Shown here piece after piece: positions 1 through 18,123 of a stretch of 64,000 nt of DNA; positions within the stretch are counted from its first letter, which is position 1; every line of letters begins with the position of its first letter. Position numbers and translations under genes: made by a program. The DNA comes from Colwellia sp. TT2012 (GTDB lineage Bacteria; Pseudomonadota; Gammaproteobacteria; Enterobacterales; Alteromonadaceae), in contig NZ_LJYX01000017.1 of NCBI RefSeq assembly GCF_001440345.1, forward strand, positions 372,001 to 436,000, given 5' to 3'. The notes beneath the pieces are model-generated. The model made no database searches, was not told where the DNA came from, and worked only from the letters and a program-made list of their open reading frames with translations.

Positions 1-278
1 TCTGGAAGTTTAGATGAATTAAAAACTGGTTTTTCACTATTAAGCTGAATTAATTTCCAACATAGGTCGATAAGTAGCTTTTTAAAACAAAATAACAGAC
101 ACCCACTCATAATCATCAACAAAGACTACCATAAATAAAATCAGGGTTACTGACTAACATCAGGCAGAATTTCACTTAAATTAGGATAGCGAAGAGGTAA
201 TTAAAATTAATGTGCAAAAATACTGTTTTCCTAAAATGAAGACGCAATTACCTTTAGGTGACTAATAATTACTAGCGA
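1..278. other. Gene-free left edge with RAYT element end
   Basis: I see no convincing coding sequence in these bases. The only clear structure is the left inverted repeat of the RAYT element, centred on cagacacccactca at 96-109, which is repeated in inverted form at 1321-1334. The remainder is AT-rich DNA between this repeat and the 3' end of the transposase gene. Confidence 0.6.
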
Positions 279-1342
279 TTAAGCCAACAACTTTTGGCAG
301 ATTGATACCGTTGCTCGTTTTTTTAAGTGCTGATGTTCACAAAAGTCCGTAAGTGCTTGCGCTCTACCTACCGCACCATGAAAACATTGTCTAAACTTGG
401 TGGTTAATACTAACCAGTTTTGGGCACTAATACCTAAGCGGGTTAATATTTCAGGTTGAGATTTTTCAATATAACCGCGTTTATCGGCTCGAATACAACG
501 ACCGGTTAAATCTACCAATTGTATATAGTCACTTAATTCAAACGGTAAACCTGTTGGCATGTTCTTTCTTGGGTTACCGATAAAGGGCAGTAGTTGTTGG
601 GCTTGTTGCCCTTTAACTGCGGCTTTTATCCGTCGTTGAATACTGGTGTACTTGGATGTTTCTGGGGTTTTAGCTATTTTAGCTCTAATGGGATTTAAAT
701 CGACATAAGCCATACAGGCTATTAACGCGGCTTCATCAAGCAAGGCTTGAGATTTAAAACGTCCTTCCCAAAACCTGCCGGTACACTTATCTTCTCGATT
801 GGCTTGTTTAGCGATAGTTTCATTTAAAATACGCATAAACCAACTGATATCCATCAATCTCTGACGATAAACCCTGGCTGTTTCGTCTACAACTTGTTGA
901 AGCGTGTCAATGAGTGGCTCACCCCGTAAATATTGTTGCGTTAGCAAGGTTCCTTTAAATAGCTGATGCCAACGGCTAATCACTTCATGCATTGACCATG
1001 ACTTAGCTTGCTGCTCATCAATAAACAACACCAAATGGGTGTGATTACTCATGATCGCATACGCACAAACATCAATCGCAAAAACATCACTTAATGCTTG
1101 TAATTTATCAGCGACCCAAGCACGTCTATGCTCATAACTTTGTCCGGTAAATTTATCTTCTCCACATAGATATGCTCGGCGAACACAACGAGAAACACAA
1201 TGATAATAAGGTGTATCAACTAAGCTTATTTGTTGTTTTCTTGCCGTGGCCATAATAACTCTCAAAGGATATTTATTGATCATTATTTAAGCATAGTAGA
1301 TGCCACTCATTATTACCATTTGAGTGGGTGTCTGCTATTTTG
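89..1342. mobile_element. RAYT element 1 with terminal inverted repeats
   Basis: A tyrosine transposase gene is bracketed by inverted repeats: cagacacccactca (96-109) on the left and tgagtgggtgtctg (1321-1334) on the right. Including flanking bases, about 20 of 22 positions match. A solo hairpin with the same arms lies at 7389-7433, which suggests a short non-autonomous derivative. The RAYT/REP pairing is established family knowledge; that this transposase moves this hairpin is inference. Confidence 0.7.
279..1253 (-). CDS. REP-associated tyrosine transposase (RAYT, Y1_Tnp family)
   Basis: IS200-like HUH-type single-strand transposase of the RAYT branch, expected to nick and join DNA at REP palindromes. 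The HUH histidine pair is seen in the block SNHTHLVLF, and a later block (CTGRFWEGRFKSQ) is typical of the family. I prefer the start at 1253 (MATARKQQ): a GAGAG Shine-Dalgarno sits 6 bases upstream and the copies elsewhere in the window start at the equivalent residue; an upstream ATG at 1283 adds 10 residues. About 325 aa, apparently full length. It is clearly diverged from the two RAYTs at 11.5 and 16.6 kb and has different terminal repeats, so it is a separate lineage. Confidence 0.88.
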   Translation of the reverse strand: MATARKQQISLVDTPYYHCVSRCVRRAYLCGEDKFTGQSYEHRRAWVADKLQALSDVFAIDVCAYAIMSNHTHLVLFIDEQQAKSWSMHEVISRWHQLFKGTLLTQQYLRGEPLIDTLQQVVDETARVYRQRLMDISWFMRILNETIAKQANREDKCTGRFWEGRFKSQALLDEAALIACMAYVDLNPIRAKIAKTPETSKYTSIQRRIKAAVKGQQAQQLLPFIGNPRKNMPTGLPFELSDYIQLVDLTGRCIRADKRGYIEKSQPEILTRLGISAQNWLVLTTKFRQCFHGAVGRAQALTDFCEHQHLKKRATVSICQKLLA

Positions 1343-1789
1343 GCTATTTTGGCTAAAAGTGACCACATCCAGTTATTAGAAAAGCATGGGACTGTTTTAT
1401 AAAAGTGTACTCTTCACAATCAGATAAACCGACAAAATCAAAAATAAAAACAACCACATAATTATTCAGATGAAAAACTGATAAAAATCACCCTAGGAAT
1501 TATTAACATACACAACAAAAAGAAATAGACACCCATACTTTATATTCTATACGACCTAATAATCAATTAACAAAAGTATGGATGTCCCCTTTTTATTACA
1601 AAAACACGGTACTGCCTTTATAACGGTGTACTCTTCACAACCAGATAAACCGACAAAAGAAAAAATAAGAACAACCGCTTAATTATTTAGATGCAAAACT
1701 GATAAAAAATCACCCTATAAATTATTAACCCGTGAGCCAGGTTGTAGCAAAAGACAAGACCTGGCCCTAATATTCACTAACAACTAAGT
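1284..1789. repeat. 130-bp imperfect direct repeat around a small hairpin
   Basis: Gene-free. Bases 1380-1507 and 1600-1729 are imperfect direct repeats (both contain gtgtactcttcacaa and gataaaccgacaaaa). Between them lies an inverted repeat with arms gacacccatacttt (1528-1541) and aaagtatggatgtc (1573-1586), 13 of 14 paired with a loop of about 31 bases. It looks like a small hairpin element inserted into a duplicated intergenic segment. Confidence 0.75.
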
Positions 1790-4700
1790 TTAATCTTTCT
1801 GAGCCTTTTTAGACTCCCTTAAAGCCTTCAATTCAAGATCTATTTGCCTTACATCAAGAAAGTGGCCATGAACAAAACGCCTAAAAAAAGTTAAAGTAAA
1901 CTTGGTCACACTCTCCATAGCTTTAAAAGTCTCCAATACGTGGAAAATTAATAAAGCTAGCCTTTTTTCAGAGGTTGCACCTTTCAGACAAATCATGGAA
2001 GATCTAGAACAAGCATATATAATATGTTCGGTATATTTCCATTCAGATAAATCAAATCTACCTTTTACACCTAAACAAGCTGAGCGGATTGACTTAAGAC
2101 AACTGGTAGTGAGTACATCAAGAGCACTCTCGGAAGAAGAATAATTATTGGGGTACTTTTTAATAACTTCCGCTGCTAAATATTGTCCTTTACTTTCCTG
2201 AGAACAAAGCTCAATAACATCTTGATGGGAAAGAGGGACAGGTAAATTAAATTGAATATGACATTCAGCTAAAGAGGCCTCTATTGACTTAGAAGCTAGC
2301 TTTGCATCAACTGTCAACTTATATACATCAGCTAAAATAACATCCAGTTGACGATAAAGCTGACAGAATGCAGAATCTACGCAAAAAAATGGAATAGAGT
2401 GAGAAATAGAAGCTTTAATAGAGCTATAGTGAGATGTATCAACGACATCTTTCAAATTTGTTAAAATTTCTGGCATATTTATGCTTGAAGGTATCAATAT
2501 TTCGCAACTTTCAATAAGTTCCTTGAGATTGCTAATATTTTTGTCTTTTGCAATATCATTTGCCGTTGTTTTTATAAAGTCATCGCCAACTTTCCCTATA
2601 GACAAAAAGTCTGTTCTGCTAATGTCATCCAACCAAGAGATTACTAAATCATGCGTCTCTTGGGTGACATAAACTTTAACACCTAGTTGTATTAGTCCTT
2701 TACTTAGACCTGTCAAACAAAAATAAGCTATTGAAAGAACGTCAACAATAACAGCCTCATCAACGACTTTTCCTTCTGAAAAAAGATTAAGAGTCTTATT
2801 ACTAGCTTCATCACATAAATAGATGAAAGCTCCTTTTATTAAATCGCTTTCATGGGAATGCTTTAGCCTCATCAGAATTGGAATAGCCTTGCCATCAATT
2901 TCATGCTCGATAGTTTGTTTTTGCTGGGATATTGAATCAATATGCTTCAGCAGCCCTTCCACACCATCGTCTTCGTTTATGGATAGTAAATAAAAGCAAT
3001 CATCTCCAGGGTTTATATCGTCTCTAATATTGGTTGAAATTCTAAATACTCCGACAATCGCAGGTAGCTTTTCAATTAACTTTATAGTCGTCATCCCCTC
3101 CTTAGCTTCCTCTCCAACATCCATATCACTTAACAGTTCACCTAAAGGACTATCTGGATTCAGTAAATACTCACTTGAATTGCAATCATCAACTAATAAC
3201 TTAGTGAACGTTCGTCCCCGTTTTGTATAAACAAAAGCCGTTGAACACCGCTCTGAAGGGTATACATTTTTAGTAAGGTCATTATTTCGTTTCAAGTTAT
3301 TAAAATGTAGGTTAGTTACATGGGTCGCCATACCGACAGGATCATCAATAAACCATTCCATAGCTACATACTCGGCTAAACTCAAATCGCTCTTTGCAAT
3401 AAGGTGGAGTAAATTAAGACCATCAAAACTAAAACTATTAATAATCTCTTTGGGTATTCTAGACACAACAATTTGAATTTTATAAGGCTCTATGTTTTCT
3501 GAATAATTTGCCCTCAATAATTGAGCCCAGTAAAAGCATGAAAGTTCATACTTGCTAATAGCTAATTCTGACAATTCAATTGCTTGTTTATAATCATTAG
3601 AAATATGTGCTCTTTCTACTTTAACAGCCAATAATCGAAAGCTATCTTTACCATTTTTCATGCTCAGTAATAATTCATCCAACTTTTCTAATTGGTCGCA
3701 TGCCAATAAAGACTCAGCATAAATGTCAACAATTGGAGATGCCCAAGGAGCTAAAGGAAGTATAGGTTCAACTAATTTGACCACGTGTAATGGCAAACCT
3801 ATGCGACTAAGGTTTATAGAAAGTTGCTGAACAGCATGAACATTAAATTCACTTATCCCATCTTGGTTGGATTCTATGAATGCCTCTAACCTTTTAGATA
3901 GATTAAACTTTTGTTGGCGATCATCAATACCACAAATCATAGAACTCAAAACTATTTGAATAAATTCTTTAGCTGGATCACTAGTGGAAGCAACAGTACC
4001 ACCACTATCAAGCCATTTCTTAATATGTCGTTCAGTTAAATTTCCTTCAATGAAGGCAGAAGATACTTGGGTAAATTCTTGCTCACTTATATTTAACTCT
4101 TCTTTATTTAACAGTTTCTTTGCTGAACCAGCATTATCAATTTTCTCTTCACCAATACATAAAAAGTCTCGTATTTTAGGAATAACCTTTTCTGCCTCTT
4201 CAAAATTTTCAATGCAAATATCTCTTAATGCTACAGATTGGAACCATGTAGAAGCTAATAAAACTGCCGCGATTTGAACTATTCGAGTATCACTATTATC
4301 TTTTGATAAATTAATGCAGTTATTAATTCTTTCTTCAAGTTCACTCATGAGCTCAAAATTAATAAGCCAATAATGTTTTCCTTCTATATCTTCATGTAGT
4401 CTATATGCCAAAGAAAGAGAGAGTAGTATTTCACTGTTAAAATTTTTGTATTTGTTAAACATGACTTTCGAAAGTTTTATTGCCAATTCAAAGTCTTTAC
4501 ATCTAATAGAACAACGAACGAAAGAGCATAGTTCACACTCAAAAAAATCTAAAGTTCCACTTTTTATTTTTGTGTCTAAATCCTCACTATTAGCAAGAAC
4601 TTCATAAAACACCTCATGGGTAAAAGCATCTTTATAAAGAGATTTAGAAAACCGATCTTTCGCATTACCTTTTGATTCAATTGATAAATAATGAATATAA

Positions 4701-5065
4701 ATAGATTCGACTATGTCTTTTATAACAGGCCCTGAGCGAGGACTACGTAATAACTCTAAAAAAACATCAGGGTTTATCTCTATGTTACTGCCGGTTAAGA
4801 GGCTAAACTTGTATTGGAGTAGCATTAGAAGGGATTTACATTCGTCATCTAAAGAGGTTAAGGACTTAAGACTATTTAAATATGCCTCAGCCGTAACCCA
4901 ATCTCGATGTGTGAATAATTTTAATAATTGCTTTGTATAAGTAACTAAGTCATTAGAGGACAAACTAGTGATATTTAAATCACCTAGGGTTACATTTGCA
5001 TTTTCAGCTGCATTTATATTATGGCCAATACCTGTACCTTGAGTTACTAAAGCACTATCTATCAC
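1790..5065 (-). CDS. Large helical-repeat protein with PIN-like C-terminal domain (GAPS6-like defence protein)
   Basis: 1091 aa, mostly alpha-helical in appearance over residues ~40-700, consistent with degenerate TPR-like repeats. Around residues 755-915 the pattern fits a PIN-type nuclease fold: an Asp after a hydrophobic strand (VIVDVLSIAY, ~775), then VYVTQETHDLV (~800), then a terminal Asp strand (FFCVDSAFCQL, ~897). The N-terminus carries IGHNIN (residues 13-18) followed by a short beta-like stretch ending NVTLGDL. Start is GTG at 5065, two bases after the stop of the upstream gene, with the SD GGAAGGA, so the two genes are almost certainly translationally coupled. The architecture recalls the two-gene GAPS6 anti-phage system (TPR plus PIN); this is from memory and needs a profile search. 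No signal peptide; cytoplasmic. Substrate is unknown, RNA being the usual PIN target. Confidence 0.62.
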   Translation of the reverse strand: MIDSALVTQGTGIGHNINAAENANVTLGDLNITSLSSNDLVTYTKQLLKLFTHRDWVTAEAYLNSLKSLTSLDDECKSLLMLLQYKFSLLTGSNIEINPDVFLELLRSPRSGPVIKDIVESIYIHYLSIESKGNAKDRFSKSLYKDAFTHEVFYEVLANSEDLDTKIKSGTLDFFECELCSFVRCSIRCKDFELAIKLSKVMFNKYKNFNSEILLSLSLAYRLHEDIEGKHYWLINFELMSELEERINNCINLSKDNSDTRIVQIAAVLLASTWFQSVALRDICIENFEEAEKVIPKIRDFLCIGEEKIDNAGSAKKLLNKEELNISEQEFTQVSSAFIEGNLTERHIKKWLDSGGTVASTSDPAKEFIQIVLSSMICGIDDRQQKFNLSKRLEAFIESNQDGISEFNVHAVQQLSINLSRIGLPLHVVKLVEPILPLAPWASPIVDIYAESLLACDQLEKLDELLLSMKNGKDSFRLLAVKVERAHISNDYKQAIELSELAISKYELSCFYWAQLLRANYSENIEPYKIQIVVSRIPKEIINSFSFDGLNLLHLIAKSDLSLAEYVAMEWFIDDPVGMATHVTNLHFNNLKRNNDLTKNVYPSERCSTAFVYTKRGRTFTKLLVDDCNSSEYLLNPDSPLGELLSDMDVGEEAKEGMTTIKLIEKLPAIVGVFRISTNIRDDINPGDDCFYLLSINEDDGVEGLLKHIDSISQQKQTIEHEIDGKAIPILMRLKHSHESDLIKGAFIYLCDEASNKTLNLFSEGKVVDEAVIVDVLSIAYFCLTGLSKGLIQLGVKVYVTQETHDLVISWLDDISRTDFLSIGKVGDDFIKTTANDIAKDKNISNLKELIESCEILIPSSINMPEILTNLKDVVDTSHYSSIKASISHSIPFFCVDSAFCQLYRQLDVILADVYKLTVDAKLASKSIEASLAECHIQFNLPVPLSHQDVIELCSQESKGQYLAAEVIKKYPNNYSSSESALDVLTTSCLKSIRSACLGVKGRFDLSEWKYTEHIIYACSRSSMICLKGATSEKRLALLIFHVLETFKAMESVTKFTLTFFRRFVHGHFLDVRQIDLELKALRESKKAQKD

Positions 5066-5067
5066 AA

Positions 5068-5424
5068 TTATTCATCCTTCCCTGTTACTATATTACCCAC
5101 AGATATATTTCCACTGCCTGTGCTATTAATGTTATGCCCTATATTTGATGTTTGCTCAACAATAATAGTGTCTCCCGATGCTTTAATATTACTAATAAGA
5201 TCAAGTAATCCCTGATGTTCAGTTATTTTTCGTTCTATTGCATGGGGGGCTAGATCTTCATTAACTCCTGTATCTTTAAGGTAATCTGATATTTTTTCTA
5301 TTTGCGAGTCATCGATAAGCCAACCTTGCAATTTCGATTTCAACATGTCAAAACCTATAACAGCACCGCCCTTTACACCATCATAAATAAGTCCCGATAA
5401 AATAGATGCGCTAAGTATATCCAC
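5068..5424 (-). CDS. Small partner protein of the PIN-TPR operon (GapS6b-like)
   Basis: 118 aa, first gene of a two-gene operon. Start is GTG at 5424 with a strong SD (GGAGG) 7-8 bases upstream. The N-terminal part (residues 5-80) looks helical with an alanine/glycine-rich start and may be a small bundle. The C-terminus carries IGHNIN (95-100) followed by STGSGNISVGNI, closely matching the N-terminus of the downstream 1091-aa protein. This shared motif and the 2-base spacing imply that the proteins work together. I recall the name GapS6b for similar small proteins but cannot confirm it here. No catalytic motif is visible; it may be a sensor, adaptor or antitoxin. Confidence 0.6.
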   Translation of the reverse strand: MDILSASILSGLIYDGVKGGAVIGFDMLKSKLQGWLIDDSQIEKISDYLKDTGVNEDLAPHAIERKITEHQGLLDLISNIKASGDTIIVEQTSNIGHNINSTGSGNISVGNIVTGKDE

Positions 5425-5533
5425 ATAAACCTCCTAAGGCTAAATTCTAAAATAACTAGTTAAAAGTTTGATTTCAATATTAATTTATCAGATTCCCCCG
5501 GTATAATGAATAGGGACAGAGTAAAATCAAGCA

Positions 5534-6163
5534 TCACCACTCCCTCAATTGTTGCATTTCTTTCAATCGGCCACGCTGCATCACCAAAGCTTCAAACAAA
5601 TCATCTACTGATGAGTTATCAGAACTTAACCCCGGCAAAGCAATATTCGCCTCAGCGAAAAAGCGCTGGCTTTGCTCATACCTTAAGCCCGTTGAGGGCT
5701 CTGCTTTTGCTCTTAAAAGAGAGGCTGATGGCTCATCAAGCCAAGCAACTTGCCACCAATGCTGAATTCTTTCTTTTGCCTGTTTTAGTTTCTGCTCTGT
5801 TGGCAATCTATCGCTTTTTTGATTGTTCACTTGGCTATCGGTGGGCAGTAAATTCCATAAGTCATTATTCGTCCAACGGGCAAAAGGCATACTGCGAAAG
5901 GTATCTAATAAACGTGCATTGATGATTTCTATAATGGCTGGCAATAGTTGATGCCCGCTTTGATGTACCTGATCAAATGACCTTGATAGGTATTGCTGGG
6001 CTAGTGCTTCTGCATTGTCATTATAAAATTTGGCTGGCAAGCGCGTGGTCCTTTCGCGTTGGTATTTTGAGTCTGCTATTTTCTCTATGCTAACACGAAG
6101 ACAAGCACTTAATTGTTGTTCTTTGTCAATAAGTTGTACTAAAAACCAAACCATAAATACCAT
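5534..6163 (-). pseudogene. HNH endonuclease remnant (C-terminal part)
   Basis: 209 codons. The block NNDLWNLLPTDSQVNNQKSD strongly resembles the second half of an HNH nuclease domain of the type (V)DHxxPF..W.NNDLWNLLP...VN..KSDRLP. Just before it the expected Asp-His is replaced by Arg-Ser (FRSMPFARW), so the catalytic histidine seems lost. The first ~15 codons come from a segment repeated at 7467-7510 (shared with the left flank of a REP unit), so the true N-terminus has been replaced by repeat DNA. Most likely a truncated, inactive nuclease, possibly from a defence locus given the operon next door. An opposing frame at 5506-5922 is a shadow. Confidence 0.5.
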
Positions 6164-6170
6164 TGGAATT

Positions 6171-7510: not shown

Positions 7511-7565
7511 AAAGTTTAGTGGTTTTAAGAGAATGGATTCCCGATCAGTAACTTCGGGAATGACG
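7511..7565. repeat. REP unit B
   Basis: 55-bp REP: aaagtttagtgg leader followed by the palindrome attcccga(N8)ttcgggaat. Its right arm continues directly into the tandem array at 7548-7711. Confidence 0.8.
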
Positions 7566-7711
7566 GAAGGTGTAACTTCGGGAATGACGAAGGTGTAACT
7601 TCGGGAATGACGAAGGTGTAACTTCGGGAATGACGGAAGGTGTAAGTTCGGGAATGGCGAGGGGGTAACTTCAGAAATGACAAAGGCGTAACCTCGGGAA
7701 TGACGGAGGGT
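7548..7711. repeat. Seven-unit tandem repeat of a REP half-palindrome
   Basis: Seven consecutive units of 22-24 bp, consensus gtaacttcgggaatgacg plus gaaggt. The first four are nearly perfect and the last three are degenerate. The unit is the right arm of the REP palindrome with its flank, so the array arose by expansion of half a REP. An open frame on the minus strand (7502-7729) only reflects the repeat period and is not a gene. Confidence 0.85.
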
Positions 7712-11248: not shown

Positions 11249-12514
11249 AGGACACTCGCTTATAAAGCAACAAAAAAAAAACAATAACACCAGCTAACTA
11301 TTCACTCAAAATAACCTCAAATTTTTCTAGTGAATATTAATCGGTACTAAACCTCTAAACAAATACGAGAATGAGTGCTTTTTATTGCTTTTTAGACATG
11401 ACAAAAAAATCAGGCTTGATGTGTTGGTATAAAAGAAGGGGGTCTGCTGAGCGTTGAGTTGTTAAGCCAATAGTTTATCACAGCAAGTGACATTGGTTCG
11501 TCGCTTTAACCCTTGGTGTTCACAGTACTCGGTCAATACATCGCTATGTCCCACCGCGCCATGAAAGAGTTTTCTAAAACCTTTGCTTAGTGTCAGCCAG
11601 TTTTCAGGGCTTATATTAAGCCGAGTTAGCAAGGTTGGTTGATTTTCTTCAATGTAACCTGCTTTATCTTCACGAAGACAACGCCCTGTCAGTTCAATTA
11701 GTTCAAGATAGTCTTTTAATTCAAACGGTAAACCTGTTGGCATTTCTTTTCTAGGGTTGCCCACAAAGGGAAGTAGCCTTGTGGGTTGTTTCCCTTTTTT
11801 TGCTGATATTACCCGTTGTTTTACGCTAGTGTACCCTGAGCTTTCAGGGGTTTTAGCTATCTTGGCTCTTACTGGGTTTAAATCAACATACGCCATACAA
11901 GCAGCAAGAGCAGCTTCGTCTAATAAGGCTTGTGATTTAAAGCGCCCTTCCCAAAAATGACCTGTGCAGTTATCTTCAAGGTTGGCTTGTCTAGCAATAC
12001 TTTGGTTTAGTAGGCGCATAAACCAGCTAATATCCATTAAGCGATTCCGATACACGGCAACCGTTTCCAGTAAAGAAGTCATAAGGTAATCGGGGATTTC
12101 TTCTCCACGACAATACTGCTGTGTTATTAATGTGCCTTTGAATAATTGATGCCAACGTTGAAGTACCTCACTTGTTGTCCACGATTTTGCAGTTTCTTCA
12201 TCAACAAAAAGTACTATATGCGTGTGATTACTCATAACAGCGTAAGCGCATACATCAATTGAAAAAATTTGACTTAGGCTGAGTAATTTATCTTCTACCC
12301 ACCCTCGCCTATGGTCAAAATTCTGCCCGGTATTTTTATCTTCACCACATAAAAAGGCGCGGCGAACACAACGAGAAATACAATGATAATAAGGTGTATC
12401 AGCTAAGCTAATTAATTGCTTTCTTGCAGTAGTCATAAAAAACCTCTCGAAAAATGCTTATTTACTAACTCTAGTTGAGAGGTTTATATTATTCAAATTT
12501 GAGCGACTGTCCTT
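11249..12514. mobile_element. RAYT element 2
   Basis: RAYT gene between aggacactcgctta (11249-11262) and gagcgactgtcctt (12501-12514), which are imperfect inverted repeats of each other. An aacctct/agaggtt inverted pair lies just upstream of the gene (about 12434-12484). Inserted at the broken DsbA gene. Confidence 0.7.
11462..12436 (-). CDS. REP-associated tyrosine transposase (RAYT), copy 2
   Basis: 324 aa HUH-type transposase with the pair of histidines in SNHTHIVLF and the CTGHFWEGRFKSQ block. Nearly identical to the copy at 16643-17617 (a handful of substitutions, e.g. Glu/Ala near residue 90 and Ser/Tyr near 130), which indicates recent duplication. It differs clearly from the RAYT at 279-1253. 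Full length with intact motifs, so it could be active. Confidence 0.9.
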   Translation of the reverse strand: MTTARKQLISLADTPYYHCISRCVRRAFLCGEDKNTGQNFDHRRGWVEDKLLSLSQIFSIDVCAYAVMSNHTHIVLFVDEETAKSWTTSEVLQRWHQLFKGTLITQQYCRGEEIPDYLMTSLLETVAVYRNRLMDISWFMRLLNQSIARQANLEDNCTGHFWEGRFKSQALLDEAALAACMAYVDLNPVRAKIAKTPESSGYTSVKQRVISAKKGKQPTRLLPFVGNPRKEMPTGLPFELKDYLELIELTGRCLREDKAGYIEENQPTLLTRLNISPENWLTLSKGFRKLFHGAVGHSDVLTEYCEHQGLKRRTNVTCCDKLLA

Positions 12515-12528
12515 GTTAATTTTTTTAC

Positions 12529-16191: not shown

Positions 16192-16642
16192 CAAACCATA
16201 ATCAATTATAAAAATAACTCTATAATGCTGCTACAAAAAGTGACCATGTATGCCTGAAGTTATTGGTAGAATTAATCCGTTCAGCCACTGTGCATGAAAA
16301 AGTTAACTAAGAAGTTATCAAAGTTAACTAGGACACTCGCTTATACCCCCCTAAAAAAAAACAATAACATAAGTAAAATAGCAAGTTAACTAGGACACTC
16401 GCTTATACCCCCCTAAATAAGTCAAAGTTAACTAGGACACTCGCTTATACCCCCCTAAAACAAAACAATAACATAAGTAAAATAGCCACTCAAAATAAGC
16501 TCAATTATTGCGAATAAAACCTGAGTTCGAACAGTATTTACCAAATTTTCAAATAAATAGCAGAAATGCTATTTTTTAGACATGACAAAAATATCAGGCT
16601 TGATGTGGTTTTATTAAATAAGAGGTGATTGGTGCTGAATCG
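16192..16642. repeat. Array of RAYT left ends (three copies)
   Basis: Three direct copies of gttaactaggacactcgctt followed by atacccccctaa, beginning near 16322, 16384 and 16426. Each carries the left terminal repeat of the RAYT element. A fourth, altered copy lies near 20260, and the single-copy equivalent of RAYT element 2 is at 11249. No gene in this stretch. Confidence 0.85.
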
Positions 16643-17617
16643 TTACGCCAATAGTTTATCACAGAAAGTGACATTGGTTCGTCGCTTTAACCCTTGGTGT
16701 TCACAGTACTCGGTCAATACATCGCTATGTCCCACCGCGCCATGAAAGAGTTTTCTAAAACCTTTGCTTAGTGTCAGCCAGTTTTCAGGGCTTATATTAA
16801 GCCGAGTTAGCAAGGTTGGTTGATTTTCTTCAATGTAACCTGCTTTATCTTCACGAAGACAACGCCCTGTCAGTTCAATTAGTTCAAGATAGTCTTTTAA
16901 TTCAAACGGTAAACCTGTTGGCATTTCTTTTCTAGGGTTGCCCACAAAGGGAAGTAGCCTTGTGGGTTGTTTCCCTTTTTTTGCTGATATTACCCGTTGT
17001 TTTACGCTAGTGTACCCTGAGCTTTCAGGGGTTTTAGCTATCTTGGCTCTTACTGGGTTTAAATCAACATACGCCATACAAGCAGCAAGAGCAGCCTCGT
17101 CTAATAAGGCTTGTGATTTAAAGCGCCCCTCCCAAAAATGACCTGTGCAGTTATCTTCAAGGTTGGCTTGTCTAGCAATACTTTGGTTTAGTAGGCGCAT
17201 AAACCAGCTAATATCCATTAAGCGATTCCGATACACGGCAACCGTTTCCAGTAAATAAGTCATAAGGTAATCGGGGATTTCTTCTCCACGACAATACTGC
17301 TGTGTTATTAATGTGCCTTTGAATAATTGATGCCAACGTTGAAGTACCTCACTTGTTGTCCACGATTTTGCAGTTGCTTCATCAACAAAAAGTACTATAT
17401 GCGTGTGATTACTCATAACAGCGTAAGCGCATACATCAATTGAAAAAATTTGACTTAGGCTGAGTAATTTATCTTCTACCCACCCTCGCCTATGGTCAAA
17501 ATTCTGCCCGGTATTTTTATCTTCACCACATAAAAAGGCGCGGCGAACACAACGAGAAATACAATGATAATAAGGTGTATCAGCTAAGCTAATTAATTGC
17601 TTTCTTGCAGTAGTCAT
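16643..17617 (-). CDS. REP-associated tyrosine transposase (RAYT), copy 3
   Basis: 324 aa, nearly identical to the copy at 11462-12436 over its whole length, with the HUH motif SNHTHIVLF. It lies between an array of its left ends (16322-16457) and an array of its right ends (17683-18113), an arrangement that copy 2 does not have. Intact and possibly active. Confidence 0.9.
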   Translation of the reverse strand: MTTARKQLISLADTPYYHCISRCVRRAFLCGEDKNTGQNFDHRRGWVEDKLLSLSQIFSIDVCAYAVMSNHTHIVLFVDEATAKSWTTSEVLQRWHQLFKGTLITQQYCRGEEIPDYLMTYLLETVAVYRNRLMDISWFMRLLNQSIARQANLEDNCTGHFWEGRFKSQALLDEAALAACMAYVDLNPVRAKIAKTPESSGYTSVKQRVISAKKGKQPTRLLPFVGNPRKEMPTGLPFELKDYLELIELTGRCLREDKAGYIEENQPTLLTRLNISPENWLTLSKGFRKLFHGAVGHSDVLTEYCEHQGLKRRTNVTFCDKLLA

Positions 17618-18123
17618 AACAAAACCTCTCGAAAAATGCTTATTTACTAACCCTAGTTGAGAGGTTTATATTATTCAAATTTGAGCGACTGTCCTTATTA
17701 ATTCTTTTAATAACAAAACCTCTAGAAAAATGCTTATTTACTAACCCTAGTTGAGAGGTTTATATTATTCAAATTTGAGCGACTGTCCTTGTTAATTCTT
17801 TGTTAATTCTTTTCAAATTTGAGCGACTGTCCTTTTTAATTCATTGAGAGGTTTATATTATTCAAATTTGAGCGACTGTCCTTATTAATTCTTGTTATTC
17901 AAATTTGAGCGACTGTCCTTATTAATTCCTTTCTTGCATGAGCGACTGTCCTTATTAATTCTACTTTCTTGCAGTAGTCATAACAAAACCTCTAGAAAAA
18001 TGCTTATTTACTAACCCTAGTTGAGAGGTTTATATTATTCAAATTTGAGCGACTGTCCTTTTTAATTCACTTTGAGCGACTGTCCTTGTAAATTCTTTTG
18101 AGCGACTGTCCTTATTAATTCTA
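17618..18123. repeat. Array of RAYT right ends (nine copies)
   Basis: Nine direct copies of gagcgactgtcctt, mostly followed by attaattc, at 17683, 17777, 17821, 17870, 17907, 17940, 18047, 18074 and 18100. Some units are long and include the aacctct...agaggtt upstream region, and one (from about 17963) even includes the first codons of the transposase gene. Spacing is irregular (26-107 bases), so this is not a CRISPR and not a simple tandem repeat. Confidence 0.88.

Follow-up and report, generated by a model that had tools for sequence, protein, structure and literature searches.

A window of 64,000 nucleotides from Colwellia sp. TT2012 (contig NZ_LJYX01000017.1, positions 372,001 to 436,000), which is the whole stretch of DNA analysed here, carries near its left end two adjacent genes, gapS6a and gapS6b, assigned by sequence to the GAPS6 anti-phage family. 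The first encodes a small HetE-N protein and the second a large protein with a PIN nuclease domain, and the two share a short motif, located at the tail of the one and at the head of the other.

The GAPS6 operon and its proteins

Both genes lie on the reverse strand and start with GTG. The 118-aa open reading frame (ORF) of gapS6a is directly upstream of the 1091-aa ORF of gapS6b, with an intergenic gap of 2 bases (5066-5067), and this layout agrees with the preliminary description of the locus. The same description placed a strong Shine-Dalgarno sequence before each gene, which is true of gapS6a, whereas that of gapS6b is only moderate. The features, in window coordinates, are the following.

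5430-5435, minus strand: ribosome-binding site of gapS6a, AGGAGG, 5 nt upstream of the GTG; strong
5068-5424, minus strand: gapS6a, HetE-N domain protein of 118 aa, with a helical domain to about residue 80 followed by a flexible tail
5086-5154, minus strand: GapS6a tail motif, residues 91-113 (QTSNIGHNINSTGSGNISVGNIV), from the alignment to the GapS6b head
5075-5079, minus strand: ribosome-binding site of gapS6b, AAGGA, 9 nt upstream of the GTG, within the 3' end of gapS6a; moderate
1790-5065, minus strand: gapS6b, motif-TPR-(GreAB-C-like)-PIN protein of 1091 aa (NCBIfam NF047936)
4970-5041, minus strand: GapS6b head motif, residues 9-32 (QGTGIGHNINAAENANVTLGDLNI), from the alignment to the GapS6a tail
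3473-3613, minus strand: best TPR match in the helical-repeat body (profile positions 485-531; window coordinates approximate)
2981-3247, minus strand: weak GreA/B-C-like region at about residues 607-695, which lines up collinearly with the part of fused relatives that Pfam assigns to GreA_GreB
2351-2749, minus strand: PIN nuclease domain, residues 773-905, with D775 and D897 (Pfam PF20698, PIN-TPR-GreABC, E 5.6e-16)

Since both proteins score above the curated cut-offs of their NCBIfam models (GapS6a, NF047935, 103.6 bits against 90; GapS6b, NF047936, 1076.3 bits against 850 over residues 9-1076), the locus is identified as a GAPS6 operon, as had been suggested, and as a further member of a known family. 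It matches the named relatives in gene order and PIN domain, and no difference in domain layout was noticed between the window pair and the family. The genome holds a single match to the GapS6b model and a single match to HetE-N.

GapS6a matches Pfam HetE-N (E 1.7e-30) up to residue 101, and no catalytic family was found in it by Pfam or NCBIfam. A solved structure, PDB 9h9v, described as the "BabyBass soluble domain", belongs to the same family by sequence (9.8e-14 against residues 1-78) and has the same fold across residues 1-84. Its chains, of 82-85 residues, comprise the helical domain only, whereas GapS6a also has the tail. The match is stronger (1.4e-32) for the GapS6a of a more distant operon, L066, the partner of which scores 1212.5 bits as GapS6b, above the cut-off. 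As this relative already has a solved structure, part of the GapS6a/GapS6b story may be known to others.

The predicted PIN-like acidic pattern between residues 775 and 897 of GapS6b was recovered as the PF20698 domain: D775 is aspartate in 31/31 aligned proteins and D897 in 30/31, with a gap at the latter position in L052, where the gene is split. Window GapS6b alone gives no TPR match in Pfam or PDB and no GreA/B-C match in Pfam. A profile of 31 GapS6b-type proteins, the window protein included (A3), matches PDB consensus TPR structures (6.1e-9), and so the helical-repeat body that had been noticed is TPR-like. A search of 5.8 billion proteins, with the 8000 best candidates scored, returned 21 relatives of GapS6b at 28-92% identity (20 of them at 44-92%, one at 28%). 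Each matches over at least 97% of the length, and the 1091-aa ORF is therefore real and not a chance frame. The same number of proteins yielded 36 relatives of GapS6a.

A motif shared by the GapS6a tail and the GapS6b head

The GapS6a tail QTSNIGHNINSTGSGNISVG and the GapS6b head QGTGIGHNINAAENANVTLG are one motif, a likeness that the preliminary description does not mention. GapS6a ends in QTSNIGHNINSTGSGNISVGNI and a few further residues, while GapS6b begins with eight residues followed directly by the motif. The alignment of tail and head scores 69, against a maximum of 61 among 20,000 shuffles and of 35 among 46 control pairs made of neighbouring mechanical ORFs. The family models hide this likeness, because Pfam covers GapS6a up to residue 101 and the GapS6b model takes in its protein from residue 9 onwards. 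None of the GAPS6 family descriptions examined mentions a paired motif, and neither the motif nor the exchange of partners described below was found for GAPS6 in the literature searched, which did not include the first description of GAPS6 or publications on 9h9v.

The tail pattern is present in 36/37 GapS6a proteins, the exception (P0057) having a different C-terminus, and the head pattern in 20/22 GapS6b proteins, where the exceptions are P0015, with a near form (GHAI), and P0021, with a distant one (GSGDIV). The eight distant loci on plasmids (L046-L053), and loci of further genomes, also have a 104-120-aa gene immediately before the large one, at spacings from an overlap to about 100 bases, and the ends of the small and large proteins match each other in a motif that differs from that of the close GAPS6 operons. 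The motif type changes in both genes together: it is IGHNI in close GAPS6, GSGDNVxxxK in Pantoea, Rahnella and Rouxiella, and GDAxYGDKV in Photobacterium and Vibrio. Examples of tail and head are given below.

Pantoea (L047): tail FGTGDNVARDKIV, head QGSGDNVARDKNI
Photobacterium (L051): tail GSGDAVYGDKVM, head GDAVYGDKVMRDK
Vibrio (L053): tail GGGDAFYGDKV, head GSGDAFNGDKL
Genome G560 (L038): tail NGEGNNIG, head NGDGYNIG

The pairing was tested in 26 operons by aligning the last 38 residues of each small protein with the large protein. For 18 of them DNA and a GapS6b-type partner were available, three have another type of partner, and in the remaining five the proteins were joined solely because their longest contigs are equally long. 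Left out of the relatives were L034 and L035, which repeat L033 within its genome, as well as plasmid hits H10 and H11, which give the same match as H9; of the large gene of L052, split into two ORFs, the first piece alone was used. The tail aligned best at the N-terminus of its partner in all 26 pairs, with scores of 45-80 compared with 20-39 beyond residue 60 (windows starting at residues 21-60 were left out of the comparison). The average score was 59.8 for own pairs and 38.0 after re-pairing, with 0/20,000 permutations as high as the observed mean; for the 16 distant pairs the corresponding values were 61.2 and 45.1, again with 0/20,000 permutations. At identical motif residues of 19 operons the codons are the same in 119/225 cases, where codon usage would give 103. 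This slight excess indicates that the likeness of tail and head is not the product of a recent duplication.

HetE-N proteins of the GapS6a type were also found in front of other partners. In L077 such a protein, which scores 139.3 bits as GapS6a and thereby exceeds the 103.6 of window GapS6a, precedes a 922-aa protein with a matching head and with no Pfam or NCBIfam family; the partner in L078 resembles it in the portion read (a 246-aa piece). The HetE-N protein of L074 precedes a 312-aa protein, likewise with a matching head. In the two partners scanned, those of L077 and L074, Pfam detected no PIN domain and neither Pfam nor NCBIfam a nuclease. The three loci, each a HetE-N gene followed by a partner with a matching head (L077:5001-8095, L078:5001-6065 and L074:620-1922), are candidate new defence pairs.

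Conversely, eight PIN-TPR-GreABC proteins of 1288-1459 aa, related to GapS6b, are single chains. A hidden Markov model of A4 found no HetE-N gene in any of the eight fetched loci (8/8 control loci score), and the motif is absent from the eight proteins, where the best score was 39. Seven of them carry an N-terminal nuclease-like block, G..G[QH]...[GA].D..QCK, which in L064 was not found within the first 300 residues; with L064 left out, four of the seven scanned have Pfam Mrr matches, all below the cut-off. In a profile comparison seven single-chain proteins are collinear with GapS6b over the TPR, GreA/B-C and PIN parts (98.3%, 528 columns). As the chains are collinear with GapS6b, have neither motif nor HetE-N gene and bear a nuclease-like block, the slot which GapS6a fills through the motif is occupied elsewhere by a fused, probably nuclease, domain.

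Occurrence and genomic neighbourhood

In the order, the large protein occurs in 4/394 genomes, the own one included, with three above the cut-off; across the phylum it was found through its PIN domain in 10/398, again including the own genome. In the class, the GapS6b model has matches at E 0.001 in 30/369 genomes, where the own genome is the sole one above the cut-off and nearly all other matches are confined to the TPR part. Eleven plasmid records match, nine of which were opened, and no match was obtained among phage records. In Alkalimonas amylolytica, GAPS6 occurs on three contigs (L033, L034 and L035), with identical GapS6a, GapS6b start and upstream 319-aa gene. On a Photobacterium plasmid a distant GAPS6-like pair adjoins gmtX of the gamma-mobile-trio (L051:3481-8007), and on a Vibrio plasmid another lies near a gene annotated DndB (L053:2732-8157). 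The title of the original GAPS6 paper, by Mahata et al. in 2024, reportedly links GAPS6 to gamma-mobile-trio elements. The GmtX model, the one gamma-mobile-trio model tried, had no match in the own genome, and its control search was likewise without a match.

The preliminary description argued for a mobile defence context from a RAYT element and a broken HNH nuclease flanking the operon. A RAYT-like gene is indeed present (279-1283; 42.1 of 80 bits, below the NCBIfam cut-off), but the HNH assignment of the ORF at 5534-6163 is merely sub-threshold (Pfam HNH_4, E 0.0022, 18.4 of 22 bits), which makes the argument weak. Furthermore, the RAYT element is highly repeated in the genome, with 37 matches to window positions 1-1789 (40 of 80 candidates scored), so that adjacency to it says little; far fewer matches, 6 and 7, were found in two genomes of the same genus. 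A better argument for a defence context is offered by the left edge of the window, where window base 1 corresponds to position 8001 of L075. A 1222-aa YobI-ATPase protein (L075:4454-8122; PADLOC Tmn, 237 bits) extends to window base 122, and farther left lies a PLD-helicase-DUF3427 enzyme (L075:1172-4393; PADLOC mREase_IV, 710 bits). Given these Tmn/YobI NTPase and mREase_IV genes, the operon sits, as judged by sequence, at the margin of a defence cluster. Rightward, metabolic-type genes begin, with an asparaginase-family gene and a selenate/phosphonate-type ABC transporter.

Further RAYT-like transposase genes occur at 11462-12436 and 16643-17617. Beside the RAYT genes there are clusters of short direct repeats (GAGCGACTGTCC; ACTCGCTTATACCCCCCTAAA), at 12418-12522 and 17600-18121 and also at 16318-16493, perhaps REP-like targets of RAYT. 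A 92-base direct repeat (89%) at 1396-1487 and 1617-1708 lies between the RAYT gene and the gapS6b end. Positions 7525-7710 hold a roughly 23-base tandem repeat (GTAACTTCGGGAATGACGAAGGT), and the dispersed block surrounding it is copied at 6167, 20737 and 23501.

Proposed tail templating and its alternatives

In the excerpts available of Kaur et al. 2021 (PMC8195603), TPR-GreA/B-C-PIN conflict systems are described as mostly standalone genes with a fused effector, and a HetE-type domain is listed among the effectors, as one of the variable N-terminal domains. The core of those systems, as excerpted, is the same as that of GapS6b, where the GreA/B-C part is putative; in GAPS6, by contrast, HetE-N is a separate gene, and the shared motif lies at the would-be fusion point. 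Amyloid-signalling pairs, according to portions of three papers (PMC12261475, PMC8086366, PMC9815663), are encoded by adjacent genes and carry matching motifs on the effector C-terminus and the NLR N-terminus. To judge from these portions, BASS/Bell-NLR pairs likewise combine adjacent genes, a small effector and a short motif on the same two termini, whereas the presumed GAPS6 receptor is a TPR-PIN protein without NLR, its putative effector is assigned by Pfam to HetE-N where theirs is a Bell domain, and an amyloid is only presumed. The letters "ARD" occur in the motif of L047 and in that of L072, which is reminiscent of BASS2, whose C-terminus is reported in PMC9815663 to contain ARD.

The effector picture of Kaur et al., combined with the layout of the amyloid-signalling pairs, leads us to consider it on balance probable that in this GAPS6 operon GapS6b, as receptor and nuclease, templates the GapS6a tails into an active assembly. 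The TPR body would detect infection, perhaps at RNA polymerase through the GreA/B-C-like region, and the PIN domain would cut RNA, while GapS6a, a small helical protein supplied in trans, would be an effector or an adaptor. Once GapS6b is triggered, its heads would gather and template the tails into a shared beta assembly in the style of amyloid signalling, and the resulting clustering of HetE-N domains would switch on a growth-stopping or killing activity. We infer the cross-beta assembly, the direction of signalling and the action of GapS6a, and likewise that the PIN domain targets RNA, that phage is the trigger and that the outcome is abortive; an abortive mode of defence is plausible.

Several points weigh against tail templating. 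Amyloid formation by the motif is proposed solely by analogy from the layout of the pair, and the GapS6a tail is modelled with low confidence (predicted local distance difference test, pLDDT, about 41-53). The GreA/B-C-like slice by itself reaches a probability of 8.6% only, and Pfam finds no NLR or STAND NTPase in GapS6b, PIN-TPR-GreABC being the sole match. GapS6a has no clear membrane segment (19-residue hydropathy peaking at 1.15 in window GapS6a and at no more than 1.44 among the 26 pairs), and a pore function is thus not indicated. As for the pairing tests, L047 and L051 were used in them though their large proteins fall below the GapS6b cut-off (842.8 and 249.3 of 850 bits), and the own head is the top-scoring head for only 7 of the 26 tails. 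Matching is not operon-specific within the 10 closest GAPS6 pairs, since the scores of own and foreign partners are similar there (57.5 and 56.6; 6,788/20,000 permutations reach the observed value). From a regression on HetE-N similarity, a self pair would be expected to score 66, where 59.8 was observed, and the parallel motif difference is therefore no greater than common descent gives. Taken together, the permutation, close-pair and regression tests establish a motif that is paired and conserved, with matching that is specific only between motif types.

A serious rival, which we regard as possible though doubtful, takes GapS6a for an adaptor, the docking of tail and head serving to bring PIN domains together and the PIN RNase being the sole effector. 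The conservation of D775 and D897 would suit it, as would a GapS6a with neither catalytic family nor clear membrane segment and a lone PDB relative described as a soluble domain. It is opposed by the effector status given to the HetE-type domain in the excerpted text of Kaur et al. (PMC8195603). The 922-aa and 312-aa partners, in which Pfam and NCBIfam detected no nuclease, also speak against it, and the nuclease-like block that occupies the GapS6a position in the single chains points to an effector slot.

A small gene just upstream of a PIN gene is an arrangement common among toxin-antitoxin operons, and the 2-base gap found here is in keeping with it; GapS6a would then keep the PIN nuclease inactive and disappear upon infection. 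We consider this unlikely, given that both proteins bear the same motif, as opposed to a binder and its target, that HetE-N proteins retain the motif beside partners without a detected PIN domain, and that the family models name the pair anti-phage. More improbable still is that the motif has no function and was left behind when one gene split and its linker was duplicated. Such a relic would agree with the existence of single-chain relatives and with a parallel difference that lies within common descent; however, codon identity near the usage expectation suggests that the residues were kept while silent sites drifted, and the motif is present on unrelated partners and absent from the single chains.

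In a broader version of the templating reading, to which we give slightly better than an even chance, GAPS6 would be a prion-like immune system without NLR, in which a TPR-PIN receptor templates a HetE-N effector, GapS6a is portable among unrelated receptors, and sister systems fuse a nuclease-like domain instead. The paired motif offers a concrete and cheap test of the communication between GapS6a and GapS6b, by mutating or swapping a 20-residue tag. Should amyloid templating prove true, bacterial prion-like signalling would include TPR-PIN receptors in addition to NLRs, and further receptor/effector pairs not linked by domain searches could be found through the tag.

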